Source: Acidobacteriota bacterium | GTDB taxonomy: Bacteria; Acidobacteriota; Terriglobia; Acidiferrales; UBA7541 | Direction: 5' to 3' | Assembly (NCBI GenBank): GCA_023481105.1 | Contig: JAMCWK010000025.1 | Location: 1-45,927, forward strand | Length of the DNA stretch: 45,927 nt | Shown: positions 2,354 to 43,391 of the stretch, one piece after another | Layout of the letters: each line of letters starts with the position of its first letter | Numbering within the stretch: the stretch's first letter is position 1 | Program-made: the position numbers and the translations under genes | The notes under the pieces: model-generated | Database searches by the model: none | What the model saw: the letters and a program-made list of their open reading frames with translations, nothing else | What the model was told of the DNA's origin: nothing

Positions 2354-3379
2354 ATGCGCAGACCCATTCTCGCGACGATCATTCTCACGGGACTCGTGCT
2401 GCCGCTGCTCGCGTTGCCGCAGCAGCCCAAGGCTCCCGCCCCGCAGCAACGTCCTCCGGCCCAAGCCGAAGACCAGGAAATCACCACCATGAAGTTTCCC
2501 GTGGACCTGGTCAGCGTGGTTTTCTCCGTGCTGAACCGCCGGCAAAAATTCGTCACCGACCTGAGGCAGGAAGATTTTAAGGTCGCCGAGGACAATGTCG
2601 CGCAGAAAATCACCAATTTCAGCCGTGAGACGGATCTCCCGCTGCGCATCGGCCTGCTGCTGGATACCTCCAATAGCATTCGCGACCGCTTGAAGTTCGA
2701 GAAGGAAGCCGCCGTGGACTTCCTCTATAACGTCATGCGCCGCCGCCAGGACTATGCGTTTTTGATGACCTTCGACAACGAGCCGTCTTTCATCCAGGAC
2801 TTCACCGACGACGTTGGCCAGCTCACCGAGGTCATTCAGAAGCAGCGTGCGGGCGGCGCCACCGCGCTCTACGACGCCATCTGGATTTCCGCGCGGCATC
2901 GCCTGGCGAATCCTCCGCTGCCCACGGGCAGCAATCCCTCCATTCGCCGCATCCTGGTGGTGATCAGCGACGGCGAGGACACTCTGCCCAGCGAACACAG
3001 CCGCTCGGAAGCCATCGAGATGGCCCAGCGCGCCGACGTTTCCGTGTACACCATCAGCACCAGCACGGACTGGATGTCCGTCACCGGCACCAAGCCGCAG
3101 AAATATCATTTCACCGAAGGCGACAAGGTGCTGCAAACGATCGCCGACGAAACCGGCGGCCGCGCCTTCTTCCCCTACCGCATTGACGACCTCGCGCAGT
3201 CCTTCGCCGACATCGGCACCGAGTTGCGCAGCCAATACTCGCTGGCCTACGTGCCCACCAATCGCGATCCGGACGGAAAATTCCGCACCATCAAGATCAA
3301 ATCCACGCGCTCCGGCCTCAACGTCCGCGCCCGCAAGGGCTATTTTGCTCCCCGCCCCCCGAAACCCGCTTCAGAGTAG
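2354..3379 (+). CDS. Secreted VWFA-related acidobacterial protein (copy 1)
   Basis: Member of the VWFA-related family typical of Acidobacteria; the molecular role of the family is not known. I place the start at 2354 (MRRPILATIILTGLV...) rather than at 2270, because it begins a clean signal peptide, has AAGG five to nine bases upstream and avoids overlap with rluD. After the signal come a Pro/Gln-rich linker, a beta-rich N-terminal segment (RQKFVTDLRQEDFKVAEDN) and a von Willebrand A domain with an intact MIDAS motif DTSNS at Asp104. The C-terminus carries the family signature QYSLAYVPTNRDPDGKFR and ends ARKGYFAPRPPKP. The last 84 codons are duplicated at 4623-4874. Three related genes or remnants follow within 4 kb. 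Confidence 0.88.
   Translation: MRRPILATIILTGLVLPLLALPQQPKAPAPQQRPPAQAEDQEITTMKFPVDLVSVVFSVLNRRQKFVTDLRQEDFKVAEDNVAQKITNFSRETDLPLRIGLLLDTSNSIRDRLKFEKEAAVDFLYNVMRRRQDYAFLMTFDNEPSFIQDFTDDVGQLTEVIQKQRAGGATALYDAIWISARHRLANPPLPTGSNPSIRRILVVISDGEDTLPSEHSRSEAIEMAQRADVSVYTISTSTDWMSVTGTKPQKYHFTEGDKVLQTIADETGGRAFFPYRIDDLAQSFADIGTELRSQYSLAYVPTNRDPDGKFRTIKIKSTRSGLNVRARKGYFAPRPPKPASE
3128..3379 (+). repeat. 252-bp direct repeat, first copy (second at 4623-4874)
   Basis: This 3' end of VWFA copy 1 is repeated without any insertion or deletion at 4623-4874. By eye the two copies differ in 16 of 84 codons. The twelve differences inside the core are all silent; amino-acid changes occur only in two codons at the 5' edge (T/M, I/L) and two next to the stop. 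Homology fades upstream of the repeat, where roughly FTEGDK corresponds to RTDGDQ. Confidence 0.93.
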
Positions 3380-4595: not shown

Positions 4596-4874
4596 TGGAA
4601 TTTCCGTACCGATGGGGACCAGGTGCTGCAAATGCTCGCCGACGAAACCGGCGGCCGCGCCTTCTTCCCTTACCGCATTGACGACCTCGCGCAGTCCTTC
4701 GCCGACATCGGCACCGAGCTGCGCAGCCAGTATTCGCTGGCCTACGTGCCCACCAATCGCGATCCGGACGGAAAATTCCGCACCATCAAGATCAAATCCA
4801 CGCGCTCCGGCCTCAACGTCCGCGCGCGCAAAGGCTATTTCGCGCCGCGCCCGCCCAAACCCGCAGGGCAGTAG
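4596..4874 (+). pseudogene. Remnant of a VWFA-related gene (C-terminal 84 codons plus a short divergent edge)
   Basis: An open stretch encodes only the C-terminal part of a VWFA-related protein: from VLQMLADETGG to ARKGYFAPRPPKPAGQ and a stop. The first codon of the homologous block (4623) is GTG, but there is no ribosome binding site, signal peptide, MIDAS or N-terminal half, so I call it a truncated gene. A few codons upstream (NWNFRTDGDQ) still align loosely with copy 1, after which similarity is lost; an in-frame stop lies at 4509. The silent-only divergence in the core shows that it was under protein-level selection, or gene conversion, until recently. The MBL gene on the opposite strand fills the space where the rest of the gene should be. 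Confidence 0.85.
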
Positions 4875-7366: not shown

Positions 7367-10339
7367 CTAGCCACTCTTGTTTTCATGCGCCGGGCACACC
7401 GGCCGGTATTCGCAGTGGCGGCACGCAAATCCCGGGTTCGCCTCGAATTCTCCGGCGCGGATGTTGGCGGCAACTTCCTTCACCTTGTCCTCCGCCTTTT
7501 TCAATTGCTTGGCGTCGCGCGTCGCGCACACCGGCACGTTAGTCATCAGGTTGTAAAACGTCAGGCGCAGCGGCTGTAGCTCCAGCACGTCGCGGGCGGC
7601 CAGCGCGTAGATGCTGAGTTGCAAACTCGCGCGCGCGGCCTTCTCGTCCTTCGGCCGGCCGGTTTTGTAGTCCACAATTTCCGCTTCGCGCGGGCCCAAA
7701 CGGTTCACCTGGTCCATGCGTCCGGTGATGACGACGTTTCCATCCATCGGCAGCTCGAAAGTTTTTTCCTGCCCGAGCACGTCTTCCGGCCGCGGCAACG
7801 CGCTCGCATGGAACGCGCGGAGTTGCTCGAGTCCTTCGCGCTGGTATTCTTTTTCCTGGTAATCGTCCTCGTAGCCCGCCGAGCGCCACTCGCGCCGGAA
7901 AATCGTTTCCACTTCGTCCCACGGCAGCAGCCGCTTTTTCTCTTTCCATTCCTTCACCACGATGCGCACGGTGGTGTGCATCACGTTGCCGAAGGTCGTC
8001 GCCGCGCGGGGGCCGCCGCGCAGGCCCCACACGTTGTCGAAGAGGAATTTCTGCGGGCAGGAGTTGTAGCCCTCCACCGCGGTCGCGCTCAGCTTGAGCG
8101 GCAGCGCTGCCGACGGATGAAACGTCTCCGCCCAGTGCGCGATGCGCGAATAGGCGCGTGAGTTCGGGTCCGCCGCGCCAAAAAGCGACGCCGTAGCGCC
8201 GGCATCTTGCCGGCTCTTTTCCGGCTGTTGCGCGGAAGCCTTCGGCGCCAACTGCTGCACATCGTTTTTCTTAATTTCCGGCACGGAAAGAAAATCCTCC
8301 AGAAATTCCGAGCACTTCGACCGCGCATGAATCACCGTTGTCAGCGTAAGCCGCTTGCGTGCCCGCGTCAGCGCCACGTAGAAAAGTCGCCGCTCCTCTT
8401 GGATGTGAAAATCGCCCTGCGGCGTCTGCTCTTTCATCAGCGCGTCGGGAAATTCCATCACCGGCTGCCGCCAGCGGCACGGAAATCCTCCCATCACCAG
8501 CCGCAGCACGAAGACGTGGTCGAACTCCAGGCCCTTCGCCGCGTGTACGGTCATCAGTTGCACCGCGTCGCGCCCGCCGCTCTCGGCGAGATTGATCTGT
8601 CCGTTCGCCGCAGCGAAGTCGTCGAGGTACTGCACGAACTCCGCCAGCTTGCCCGTTTCCGTCAGCGCTTTGTGCTCCCACTCGCGCACGAATTCGCCGA
8701 GTCGTGCGAGATAGGGACGGTTCAGGTCGTCTTCGGGCAACACTAGCCCTAGCTCCGCAATCAATTCGTCGAGCAACTCCGACGCGCGCACCTTCCACGC
8801 CCGTGCGCGGAGGCGCATGACGAATTCCACCAGCTCCGTGATGCGCCGGCCGGTCTTCGCAAACTCCAGTTCGCCTTGCGCTCCTTGCAGTGCATCCCAC
8901 AGCGGCTGTCGTTTGTTTTTGGCCGCCTTCGCGCACAGCCGCACCAGGTCTGCCGCGTCGAATCCCCACGCCGGCGCGCCCAGCACGCGCGCGCAGGCCA
9001 CGTCGTCCGACGGCGTCACCATCAACCGCAGGTACGCAAGCACGTCGCGCACCAGCGGATTTTCCAGGATGGAAAGATTCTTGATGACGAACGGAATTTT
9101 CCGCGCGCGCAGCGCCGCCACCAGTTTTTCGCGGTGCGTGTGCATGCGGTAGAGCACGGCGAACTCGCCCCAGCGGTGTCCCTTGGCGTGCAGCCGTTCG
9201 ATCTCGCCCGTTACCCAATTGGCCTCGTCGCCGGTCGCGCCGAATTCCACCACCTGAATTTTTTCGCCTTCCGCGTTCTGCGTGTGGAGCTGCTTGTCGG
9301 GGATATATCGATCCGCATTTTGCGCGATGACTTGTCCCGACACGCGCAGGATTTTTTTTGTCGAGCGGTAATTTTGCAGCAGCGCAAGTACATGCTCATT
9401 CGGAGGGGCGCTGCTTGCTGCGCCCCGTCCGCCGAGGAAGCGCTCCGCGAAAAGCTGAAAGCTCCCGAACGACGCTCCGCGGAAGCGGTAAATGGCCTGG
9501 TCGTCGTCCCCGACCACAAAAATATTCTTATGCCCGCCAGCCAGCAGCCACAGCAATTCGATTTGCGCGATGTTGGTGTCCTGGAATTCGTCCACCAGGA
9601 TGTACTGGAGCCGCTCGCGGAGAGTTTCCAGCAGCGCGGCGTTCGTGCGCAGCAGCTTCACCGCCCCCAGCAGTTGCCCGCCGAACGTGATCAGGTTGCG
9701 CTCGCGCAGCAGCGCTTCGCTGACGCGATAGACGCGCGCCAATTCCGTCTGCCGCTCGAGTTCCGCTTCGCGCTCAGCGCGCTCCTCGGCGTCGAGATCC
9801 GCCTTCATTTCCTCGTGCGCTTTGTGCAGCCCCGCGACGTAGCGCTCGTAGTCCGCGGGCTCGACCAGCTCATCCTGGCAGCGCGAAAAAAACTGCACGA
9901 AGTCGCGCAGGAACTGCCCCGGCTCGGCCACGCGCTTGTAGAATTTCAGCTCCAGCCGCGGCATGTTTCGCCGCATCAGGATCCAGTGGTCCGCTTCGTC
10001 GAGCAACTGCACGCCCGGATTGACTTCTTTGAGCAGGCTGAAGCAAAACGCGTGAAACGTGGTGAGGGTGAGCCCTTCCGCGCGCTCGCCGGCGGCTTTT
10101 TCCACGCGGTGCTTCATTTCCCCCGCGGCTTTGTCGGTGAATGTGAGGCCCAGAATATTTTTACCGGTGATTTCGGTTTGCGTTTCTAGCAGCCGCCGGA
10201 TGCGCTCGGTGATCACGCGCGTCTTGCCTGTGCCCGCGCCCGCCACCACCAGCAGCGGCGCTCCGCCGTGCTCGACAGCCTTGCGCTGCGCCGCATTCAA
10301 TTCCAGCGGCGTCTCACGCACTTCTCTTGTTTTGGCCAT
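7367..10339 (-). CDS. UvrD/Rep-family helicase fused to a PD-(D/E)XK Fe-S nuclease
   Basis: A 990-residue ATP-dependent 3'-5' DNA helicase with a C-terminal nuclease, the architecture of AdnAB/AddB-type end-processing enzymes. Helicase motifs: Walker A AGAGTGKT (33-40), TFTDKAA, VDEFQDTN, QAIYRFRGA, LLQNYRST, and MTVHAAKGLEFDHVF. The nuclease begins with the first Fe-S cysteine (Cys761, YNSCPQKF), has the catalytic VDYKTG, and closes with Cys973, Cys976 and Cys982 (ACRHCEYRPVCP), which together would hold a 4Fe-4S cluster. Likely role is DNA end resection or repair. Two short dispersed repeats lie inside the frame (8193-8216 and 9404-9426), both in non-conserved linkers. No partner subunit is in the window. 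Confidence 0.92.
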   Translation of the reverse strand: MAKTREVRETPLELNAAQRKAVEHGGAPLLVVAGAGTGKTRVITERIRRLLETQTEITGKNILGLTFTDKAAGEMKHRVEKAAGERAEGLTLTTFHAFCFSLLKEVNPGVQLLDEADHWILMRRNMPRLELKFYKRVAEPGQFLRDFVQFFSRCQDELVEPADYERYVAGLHKAHEEMKADLDAEERAEREAELERQTELARVYRVSEALLRERNLITFGGQLLGAVKLLRTNAALLETLRERLQYILVDEFQDTNIAQIELLWLLAGGHKNIFVVGDDDQAIYRFRGASFGSFQLFAERFLGGRGAASSAPPNEHVLALLQNYRSTKKILRVSGQVIAQNADRYIPDKQLHTQNAEGEKIQVVEFGATGDEANWVTGEIERLHAKGHRWGEFAVLYRMHTHREKLVAALRARKIPFVIKNLSILENPLVRDVLAYLRLMVTPSDDVACARVLGAPAWGFDAADLVRLCAKAAKNKRQPLWDALQGAQGELEFAKTGRRITELVEFVMRLRARAWKVRASELLDELIAELGLVLPEDDLNRPYLARLGEFVREWEHKALTETGKLAEFVQYLDDFAAANGQINLAESGGRDAVQLMTVHAAKGLEFDHVFVLRLVMGGFPCRWRQPVMEFPDALMKEQTPQGDFHIQEERRLFYVALTRARKRLTLTTVIHARSKCSEFLEDFLSVPEIKKNDVQQLAPKASAQQPEKSRQDAGATASLFGAADPNSRAYSRIAHWAETFHPSAALPLKLSATAVEGYNSCPQKFLFDNVWGLRGGPRAATTFGNVMHTTVRIVVKEWKEKKRLLPWDEVETIFRREWRSAGYEDDYQEKEYQREGLEQLRAFHASALPRPEDVLGQEKTFELPMDGNVVITGRMDQVNRLGPREAEIVDYKTGRPKDEKAARASLQLSIYALAARDVLELQPLRLTFYNLMTNVPVCATRDAKQLKKAEDKVKEVAANIRAGEFEANPGFACRHCEYRPVCPAHENKSG
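8193..8216. repeat. GTAGCGCCGGC-type hairpin repeat inside the helicase-nuclease frame
   Basis: GCCGGC-ATCTT-GCCGGC preceded by GTAGC, the same lead and stem as the intergenic element at 32878-32899. On the coding strand it is read as part of SRQDAGATA, in the linker between the helicase and the nuclease (about residues 708-716). It keeps the frame. Confidence 0.7.
9404..9426. repeat. 23-bp copy of the AGGGGCGC...GCGCCCC repeat inside the helicase frame
   Basis: Identical over 23 bases to 42880-42902 and over 22 bases to 12339-12360, including the 8-base loop TGCTTGCT. It is read in frame as [10 protein letters not shown] between helicase motif III and the motif LLQNYRST, a place where related helicases have a short variable loop. 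Confidence 0.88.
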
Positions 10340-10475
10340 ATCTCTGCATCGTAGCGGATTTTCCTTAAGCTTTGTAGAGGCAGGTTTCCCATTTTCGCGA
10401 ACTGCCTATGGGAAGGCCGGCGCACTACGCAAAGGGTGTCAACTGCGACATGAAATCAGGTAAACTCCTCTTCAT

Positions 10476-11141: not shown

Positions 11142-12326
11142 ATGGACACCCCCGTCATACTTAGCGCTGTCCGCACTCCAGTTGGAAAATTCCAGGGCGG
11201 CCTGGCATCGTTTTCCGCCACCGACCTCGGCGCCATTGTGGTGCGCGAAGCCGTGCGCCGCGCCGGCATCGAGCCCGGCCAGGTGGACGAATGCATCATG
11301 GGCAACGTGGTGAGCGCCGGCCTCGGCCAGGCGCCCGCGCGCCAGGCGGCCATCAAGGGCGGGCTCGACCCGCGCTCCGGTGCCATGACCATCAACAAAG
11401 TTTGCGGCTCGGGATTGAAAGCGGTGGGCCTCGCCGCGCAGCAGATTCAGCTCGGCGAAGCGGAAATCGTCGTCGCCGGCGGCATGGAGTCCATGTCGAA
11501 TTGCCCGTACCTGCTCACGCAGGCGCGCACCGGCTATCGCCTCGGCCACGCGCAAGCCATGGACTCGATGATTCTCGACGGCCTGTGGGACCCCTACGAA
11601 AATTTCCACATGGGCATGACCGGCGAGCTTGTCGCCGAAAAATACGGCATCACGCGCCAGGAGCAGGACCAGTTCGCCGTGGAGAGTCACAGGAAAGCGG
11701 TCGCCGCGACGAAAAACTGCTGGTTCGAATCACAAATTATTCCCGTCGAAGTCCCGCAGAAAAAAGGCGAGCCGCTGCGCATCTCCAAAGACGAATCGCC
11801 GCGCGAAGACACTACGCTCGAATCGCTGGCCAAGCTGAAGCCCGCGTTCAAAAAGGACGGCACGGTCACTGCCGCCAACGCGCCGGGCACCAACGACGGC
11901 GCCGCCGCGGTCGTCGTCACCAGCGAACGCCTCGCGTCAAAAATGGGCAAGCAGCCCATGGCGCGCATCATCGCGCAAGCCGTCGGCGGCATGGAGCCGA
12001 AGTGGGTGATGATGGTGCCCGTGGTCGCGGTCGAAAAGCTGCTGAAGAAAACTGGATGGGACCGCGACAAAGACGTGGACCTCATCGAGCTGAACGAAGC
12101 CTTTGCCGTGCAGGCTATCGCTGTCATCCGCGAATTGAAACTCAATCCGGCAAAAGTGAACGTGAACGGCGGCGCAGTCGCGCTCGGGCATCCCATCGGC
12201 GCATCCGGCGCGCGCATTCTCGTGACGCTGCTCTACGAGCTGCACCGTCGCAACCTGAAGCGCGGCATCGCCGCGCTTTGTCTCGGCGGTGGCAACGCCG
12301 TGGCCCTGGCCGTTGAACGAATGTAG
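11142..12326 (+). CDS. Acetyl-CoA C-acetyltransferase (thiolase)
   Basis: Condenses two acetyl-CoA to acetoacetyl-CoA, or runs the reverse thiolysis in beta-oxidation. The 394-residue length is standard. All active-site elements are present: nucleophile Cys88 in [26 protein letters not shown], His350 in [11 protein letters not shown] and Cys380 in [10 protein letters not shown]. The start is supported by AAGGAG nine bases upstream and by a good promoter. 3-Hydroxybutyryl-CoA dehydrogenase follows 780 bases later on the same strand, so the pair could supply acetoacetyl-CoA and 3-hydroxybutyryl-CoA for fatty acid, butyrate or polyhydroxybutyrate metabolism; which of these cannot be decided here. 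Confidence 0.94.
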
Positions 12327-12338
12327 AGCTGACCTTGT

Positions 12339-12360
12339 AGGGGCGCTGCTTGCTGCGCCC
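12339..12360. repeat. TTGTAGGGGCGC...GCGCCC hairpin repeat after the thiolase gene
   Basis: GGGGCGC-TGCTTGCT-GCGCCCT preceded by CTTGTA. It is 22-base identical to the copies at 9404 (inside the helicase gene) and 42880 (between rpsL and rpsG). Confidence 0.85.
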
Positions 12361-13104: not shown

Positions 13105-13965
13105 ATGTCAGTAGAAACAATCAGAACCGTCGCGGTGCTCGGCGCGGGCACGATGGGCAACGGCATCGCCCACGTCTTCGCCGCGCGCGGATACAGCGTC
13201 GTCCTGCGCGACGTCGAGCAGCGCTTCCTCGACCGCGGCCTGGACACCATCTCCAAGAACCTCGACCGCCAAATCAAAAAGGGCCAGCTCCCCGAAACCG
13301 ACAAAGCCGCTGTCCTCGGACGCATCAAAGCAGTGACCGAGCTTTCCGCGATAGCCGCCGCGGATTTCGCCGTCGAAGCCGTGCCCGAAAATCTGCAAAT
13401 CAAAACCGAAGTGCTGAAAGCCGCCGACGCGCTGCTGCGCAAAGATGTCATTCTCGCCAGCAACACTTCGACGATTCCCATCACCGCGCTGGCTGCCGTC
13501 ACGTCGCGCCCGGGAAAATTCATCGGCATGCACTTCATGAATCCGGTGCCGGTGATGACGCTGGTGGAAGTCATTCGCGGCCTGGAAACTTCCGACGAAA
13601 CGTTTGCGACGACCATGGCGCTCGCCGAAAAACTCGGCAAGAAACCCGTCGCCGTCAACGACGCCCCGGGCTTCGTCTCCAACCGCGTGCTGATGCCCAT
13701 GATTAACGAAGCCGCATTCTGCGTGATGGAAGGCGTGGCCACGCCGGAAGCCGTGGACGACATCATGAAGCTAGGCATGAACCACCCGATGGGCCCGCTG
13801 GCGCTCGCCGACCTCATCGGCATCGACACGTGTCTCGCGATTATGGATGTGCTCTATACCGGCTTTTCCGATTCGAAATACCGCCCCTGCCCACTGCTGA
13901 AAAAATTGGTCGCCGCGGGCCGCCTTGGGCGCAAATCCGGCCGCGGGTTCTATTCGTACACGTAG
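13105..13965 (+). CDS. hbd: 3-Hydroxybutyryl-CoA dehydrogenase
   Basis: NAD(P)-dependent oxidation of 3-hydroxybutyryl-CoA to acetoacetyl-CoA, or the reverse. The 286-residue length is that of the stand-alone enzyme. The Rossmann motif [16 protein letters not shown] starts at about residue 11; SNTSTIPI and [10 protein letters not shown] follow, with catalytic His143, and then [16 protein letters not shown], the start of the helical dimerisation domain. GGAGG lies well placed upstream. It works on the product of the thiolase at 11142. The TAG stop falls within GTAGCGCCGGCC, the same word that begins several dispersed hairpin repeats here. Confidence 0.94.
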
Positions 13966-34039: not shown

Positions 34040-34690
34040 ATGACTACACAACCTCAGCAACAGACGAATGTTCCCGCCCGGCTTGTGAAGGAGTTGCGCG
34101 AACGCACCAACGCCGGCTTCAGCGACTGCCGCGCCGCGCTGGTGGAATCCGGCGGCAACATCGAAAAGGCCATTGATATTCTCCGCAAGAAGGGCCAGGC
34201 CGCCGCGCAGAAGAAATCCGCGCGCGCCGCCAGCGAAGGCCTTGTGGGCCACTATATTCACGCCGGCGGGAAAATCGGCGTGCTCGTGGAAGTCAACTGC
34301 GAATCCGATTTCGTGGCGCGCACCGAGCAGTTCCAGTTGCTCTGCCACGAGATTGCCATGCACATCGCCGCGCTCGACCCGCGCTTTGTCCGCCGCGAGG
34401 AGGTCACGCCGGAAATCCTCGAACGCGAGCGCGAAATTTATCGCGCGCAGGCCCGCGCCACCGGCAAGCCGGACCCGGTGATCGAAAAAATCGTCAGCGG
34501 CAAGATGGAGAAGTTCTACGAGGAAACCTGCCTCTACGAACAGCACTTCATCAAGGACGAGTCCGTCACCATCAAGGACCTCATCGCGCAGCGCATCGCC
34601 GTCATCGGCGAGAACATTTCTGTCCGCCGCTTCGTGCGCTTCAAGGTCGGCGAAGGCGCCGCCTCCGCGGAACCTCCCGCAGCGCAGTAG
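34040..34690 (+). CDS. tsf: Elongation factor Ts
   Basis: Nucleotide exchange factor for EF-Tu. The 216-residue length is that of the short (Thermus-like/single core) type rather than the 283-residue E. coli type. An N-terminal UBA-like domain (VKELRERTNAGFSDCRAALV ... IDILRKKG) is followed by the core motif EVNCESDFVARTEQF and a C-terminal part ending RFVRFKVGEG. I start at 34040 (MTTQPQQQTNVPARLVKELR); the frame is open to 33962 but lacks any start signal. AAAGGA lies about 12 bases upstream. A terminator-like hairpin follows. Confidence 0.94.
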   Translation: MTTQPQQQTNVPARLVKELRERTNAGFSDCRAALVESGGNIEKAIDILRKKGQAAAQKKSARAASEGLVGHYIHAGGKIGVLVEVNCESDFVARTEQFQLLCHEIAMHIAALDPRFVRREEVTPEILEREREIYRAQARATGKPDPVIEKIVSGKMEKFYEETCLYEQHFIKDESVTIKDLIAQRIAVIGENISVRRFVRFKVGEGAASAEPPAAQ

Positions 34691-42841: not shown

Positions 42842-42879
42842 TCGTATCTCTGGCGATTTTCCGGAGCTTTGGATTTTGT

Positions 42880-43391
<512 letters not shown>

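Follow-up and report, generated by a model that had tools for sequence, protein, structure and literature searches.

The window analysed here, a 45,927-nt stretch from the draft genome of an uncultured groundwater acidobacterium, contains a gene for a helicase fused to a nuclease, and two short repeats with copies elsewhere in the genome lie within its reading frame. The features are listed below by window coordinates; the two intergenic copies were located by copy search.

7367..10339, minus strand: UvrD/PcrA-type helicase fused to a PD-(D/E)XK nuclease, 990 aa, housing both elements
8193..8220, plus strand (antisense to the gene): F-type REP in the helicase gene, GTAGCGCCGGCATCTTGCCGGC followed by the tail TCTTTT
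9402..9425, plus strand (antisense to the gene): A-type REP in the helicase gene, a 24-nt repeat of the form G[G/T]A GGGGCGC TGCTTGCT GCGCCC
12337..12360, plus strand: A-type REP, intergenic, 3' of the thiolase gene (11142-12326)
42878..42901, plus strand: A-type REP, intergenic, in the rpsL-rpsG gap

The translated reading frame (990 amino acids) is free of stops through both elements, as the first-pass annotation had maintained: the 9402-9425 element codes for most of residues 303-313, and the 8193-8220 element for residues 707-716 (EKSRQDAGAT). The annotation had also placed both segments in variable linkers, which the Pfam domains bear out (UvrD-helicase 14-301, UvrD_C from 320, PDDEXK_1 750-983), with the A-type element between UvrD-helicase and UvrD_C and the F-type element between the helicase part and the PDDEXK_1 nuclease. 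In the PDB alignment, the closest solved structures, PcrA and UvrD, have a gap at the position of the residue 303-313 segment.

Searching the 3.45 Mb draft genome with the 21-base core of the A type returned 24 copies and none for the reversed-pattern control; within the window, zero chance matches to this core are expected even with three mismatches. The previously reported 23-base identity of 9404-9426 to two intergenic elements is real, but its length is 24 bases for the rpsL-rpsG copy (9404-9427) and 22 for the copy after the thiolase gene (9404-9425). For the F type, 8193-8214 is an exact match to GTAGCGCCGGCATCTTGCCGGC, of which there are 16 copies with at most two mismatches (control 0), and the 27-mer ending in TCTTT has four exact copies in the genome and 13 with at most three mismatches (control 0). 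The earlier assignment of 8193-8216 to a repeat type holds, and the element is a little longer (8193-8220), because the match runs on into the TCTTTT tail that it has in common with intergenic F-type copies. The A and F types in the helicase gene have GTAGGGGCG and the stem end in common. That ordinary linker sequence should resemble the repeats by chance might be argued from the variability and GC-richness of these linkers and from the short motif GTAGCGCCGGC, whose six matches in the window against 2.4 expected (one mismatch) are by themselves weak evidence, which cannot be said of the full 27-mer. Chance similarity is nevertheless refuted by the copy counts, with an exact 24-nt run, 27-mer matches and zero controls, and by the congeners, which have unrelated sequence or another REP at these sites; we regard its probability as practically negligible.

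Both helicase segments are GTAG-type REP elements of the classical kind. An unpaired GTAG stands directly 5' of the hairpin at the 8193 copy; the 9402 copy has GGAG, where 23 of the 24 A-type copies have GTAG. Put differently, GTA precedes all A-type copies except the helicase copy, whose head has drifted from GTA to GGA. Many stem types exist among the hairpins; they agree in length and have arms that complement each other, the palindrome being kept as the stem sequence varies. As hairpin detection itself demands a stem, the unbiased part of this result is the GTAG-specific hairpin excess: in the sampled DNA, GTAG followed by a perfect hairpin occurs at 3.8% versus an overall tetranucleotide rate of 0.54%, about sevenfold. 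GTAG with a perfect hairpin gave 126 matches, only 29 of them in predicted genes, although coding sequence makes up 87% of the DNA sampled. A symmetric TGTAG...CTACA element was also considered; it has no match in the window, and the element is therefore asymmetric.

The classification as classical GTAG REPs rests on the presence in the genome of REP-associated tyrosine transposases (RAYTs), each adjacent to hairpins of one particular type. These enzymes belong to the HUH transposases, and known members bind GTAG hairpins in single-stranded form and cleave them in vitro (PMC8266576). Three contigs match the NF047646 RAYT profile, two of them above the cut-off of 80 bits (C61, 105.7 bits; C67, 83.1 bits; C23, 72.7 bits). 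The RAYT on C67 has GTAGGACAGGC hairpins on both flanks; arrayed GTAGCACAGGC hairpins border the C23 RAYT on one side, and the C61 RAYT has GTAGCGCCCACC at its 3' end. All three thus adjoin matching REPs of types other than A and F. No RAYT with flanking REPs of the A or F type was found in this 85%-complete draft, and so the two types may have been mobilised in trans, at an earlier time, or by a RAYT gene that the draft lacks. By coordinates, relatives of the same family have a RAYT beside the A type (G015, C23/C24) and beside the F type (G014, C92). In G002, the sister species, a RAYT at C27:109261-109704 adjoins, again by coordinates, REPs of that genome's own abundant type. The same contig has one open frame (109095-109813) with a GACC-type REP (109480-109502) between two RAYT profile matches (109261-109464 and 109534-109704); this REP possibly lies inside the RAYT gene itself.

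We surveyed 1.84 Mb of the 3.45 Mb draft, 86% of it predicted coding, with genes called by a simple dicodon model. As is characteristic of REPs, the elements are dispersed, high in copy number and mostly extragenic: 171 of 208 lie outside predicted genes and 37 within. At least 90 nt from gene ends there are 24 elements in 15 predicted genes, so that their density inside genes (24 in 1.58 Mb of coding sequence) is about 44-fold lower than between genes (171 in 0.26 Mb). The hosts include SecA, HisRS, DnaE2 (six elements), MtaB, two kinases, QueG, CarA, a UDG-family glycosylase, an Mfd-like protein that contains a UvrB-interaction domain, the helicase-nuclease (two elements) and a beta-lactamase/NamZ fusion; in the PNPase-like, DinB-like (N-terminal) and C58 reading frames the element lies in a stretch of doubtful coding status. 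HisRS and DnaE2 contain inverted pairs of elements. The in-gene sites examined lie in loops or in the linkers between domains. Among the in-gene elements there is no excess of hairpins whose length is a multiple of three, and a simple multiple of three as insertion length is thus not seen on hairpin length alone.

Bypass elements such as mitochondrial byp are GC-rich hairpins of similar size within genes. The in-gene GC-rich hairpins found here look like them, which raises the alternative that the inserts are bypassed in translation or otherwise removed and that the peptide is absent from the protein. Every listed in-gene copy, however, leaves the reading frame open throughout, a feature that bypass would not call for (although the gene finder calls open frames only), and plain translation accounts for all cases. 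With the frames open we rejected bypass as unneeded and consider it highly improbable.

Comparison with relatives shows that occupancy of the helicase linkers differs between species. The congeners of this genome (G000) include the groundwater MAGs JACQDE01 and JACOSF01, and the helicase-nuclease orthologs of the congeners G001 and G002 are 89% and 85% identical, respectively. Alignment showed the 8193-8220 element to be absent from both orthologs, and a segment of the residue 303-313 type was found in none of the 30 relatives covering the first linker. In G002 this linker contains GTAGGGGCGACCGGAAGGTCGCC together with a 15-nt tandem expansion of part of GTAGGGGCGACCGGAAGGTCGCC. The corresponding GACC type has 51 copies in G002 versus two in G000, and the A type has 23 copies in G000 versus four in G002. 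Because each species carries its own abundant REP type in the first linker, the comparison suggests separate events after the species split. We rejected the explanation that the segments are conserved protein residues in other codons: the first-pass annotation had named the same residues encoded by unrelated codons in distant relatives as the outcome that would speak against insertion, and the linkers of relatives have other sequence.

The ortholog alignment that had been proposed to date the insertions and show their ends resolved presence and absence, but the helicase gave no clean ends. The linker at site 1 is 21 aa long, as in many element-free relatives, with no net gain, and that at site 2 is 18 aa versus 15 aa in relatives; neither site shows a clean step of +24 or +28 nt. 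As a one-element length step is missing at the helicase sites, loss or replacement of flanking linker sequence must be added to insertion there, gene conversion being another possibility. Exact ends came from two neighbouring kinase paralogs on contig C31: at the position of its element, each gene exceeds its paralog by exactly 24 nt (8 aa). The two genes act as reciprocal empty sites and define the element ends. No target-site duplication is present at the two kinase sites, where the 24-nt step equals the length of the element.

These length relations bear on whether recombination (gene conversion, or template switching from one hairpin to another), rather than insertion by a RAYT, placed the repeats, the different types then reflecting replacement of an older REP. 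This would fit the lack of net length gain at site 1, the GTAGGGGCG and stem end common to both helicase types, and the fact that the helicase and MtaB linkers of G000 and G002 hold REPs of different types at almost identical positions. In the MtaB linker, G002 (L137) has two REP-like hairpins, one with its head mutated to GTTG, which start at the very codon where G000 (L112, 10991-11014) has a single different REP. New insertion, however, likewise predicts that the helicase linker of each species holds the type abundant in that species, and the kinase sites show a clean step of +24 nt at positions otherwise free of elements; on balance, recombination seems to us the rather less probable course. 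A further difference between the two species was seen in the HisRS loop, which holds an inverted REP pair in G000 and an in-frame CAGAAGTCAGAAATCAGAAGTCAG-type repeat of a different class in G002 (L129).

We prefer, with high confidence, the reading that the segments are GTAG REPs which were spread by RAYTs and whose in-frame linker copies were kept and are translated. Such elements are single-strand hairpins of 22-28 nt with an unpaired GTAG head. Judging from known RAYTs, cognate HUH transposases would cleave and join such hairpins as single-stranded DNA and thereby spread them genome-wide. Insertion might occasionally occur anywhere, with selection purging most coding insertions; survivors would be those in frame, free of stops and in a flexible linker, and would be translated as a short extra peptide that is presumably neutral. 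The first-pass suggestion that the elements moved or were copied into new sites and that coding copies survive where tolerated is supported by their absence from relatives, the other REP in G002 and the 24-nt kinase step.

The effect has already been described in other bacteria, and the present case is a clear new example that closely matches a 2013 survey (PMC3733652). The survey reports intragenic GTAG REPs from several phyla, with hosts including UvrD/Rep helicases, DnaE2 and tRNA synthetases; in two Xanthomonas species, recB carries REPs that differ from each other at roughly one and the same site (PMC3733652). As here, the REPs it describes have a GTAG head, a short hairpin, dispersed copies, dimers and RAYT neighbours (Di Nocera et al, 2013; PMC3733652). 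Unlike there, the REPs here reside in an acidobacterium, and for this group the passages cited mention, in Koribacter, only transposases flanked by TIRs (PMC3733652); many stem types coexist here, and exact ends follow from reciprocal empty sites. Rickettsia palindromic elements are likewise palindromic, in frame within genes and translated, although RPE-1 elements are longer than those found here; the survey characterises the R. conorii class by a CGTC tag and no association with a transposase gene (PMC3733652), and we rejected this assignment as the heads here are GTAG. The REP/TnpA-REP systems of E. coli and Stenotrophomonas resemble ours in their GTAG-headed hairpins, which are recognised by HUH tyrosine transposases (PMC8266576); those REPs are mainly extragenic and, unlike the acidobacterial pairs, biochemically characterised. 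The analysis adds the phylum Acidobacteriota to in-frame intragenic REP insertion, with exact ends and timing between species, and cautions annotators that a short insert which only one lineage of a conserved protein possesses can be a piece of mobile DNA.

The 2013 survey speculates that REPs are directed to DNA-repair genes, or favoured there, because they alter repair or mutation rate (PMC3733652). Repair hosts among our 15 genes are the helicase-nuclease (two elements), DnaE2 (six), the UDG-family glycosylase, the Mfd-like protein and, in its doubtful N-terminal stretch, the DinB-like protein, and the survey found the same gene classes (PMC3733652). Most of these repair hosts, however, are long proteins of several domains that offer many linkers, and SecA, HisRS, CarA and the kinases are unrelated to repair, so that we think such a preference unlikely; the helicase, DnaE2, UDG and Mfd-like genes nonetheless provide an independent host set for testing the 2013 proposal (PMC3733652). 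Only tentatively do we suggest that the helicase and MtaB linkers have been repeatedly reoccupied by each species' active REP type and are recurrent landing sites, perhaps with a preference for repair genes. If this is true, coding linkers would archive the history of REP activity.

Several further observations concern the repeats and their surroundings. At 13962-13965 of the window, a REP-like motif has a GTAG head that provides the TAG stop (13963-13965) of a gene ending at 13965; REP heads supplying stop codons have been described for other REP-rich genomes. Short tandem arrays with a 44-nt period, each of a single REP type, occur at L115 (8239-8392) and L087 (6880-7123). Some A-type REPs, near L097 9539 and in the QueG gene (C16, 49418-50668), have a loop split by another repeat (TGTCCTGAGC...GCCGAA), a nested insertion. 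An inverted pair of GTAGAGGCAGGTTTCC in the window (10371-10389 and 34522-34540) is possibly another GTAG repeat family. On L026, a galactokinase-like region that includes a masked gap weakly matches a Y1 transposase, possibly because of an IS200-like insertion or an assembly artefact. Finally, a 257-nt direct repeat in adjacent similar genes of the window (3113-3369 and 4608-4864) is 94% identical, which points to a recent tandem duplication or conversion.
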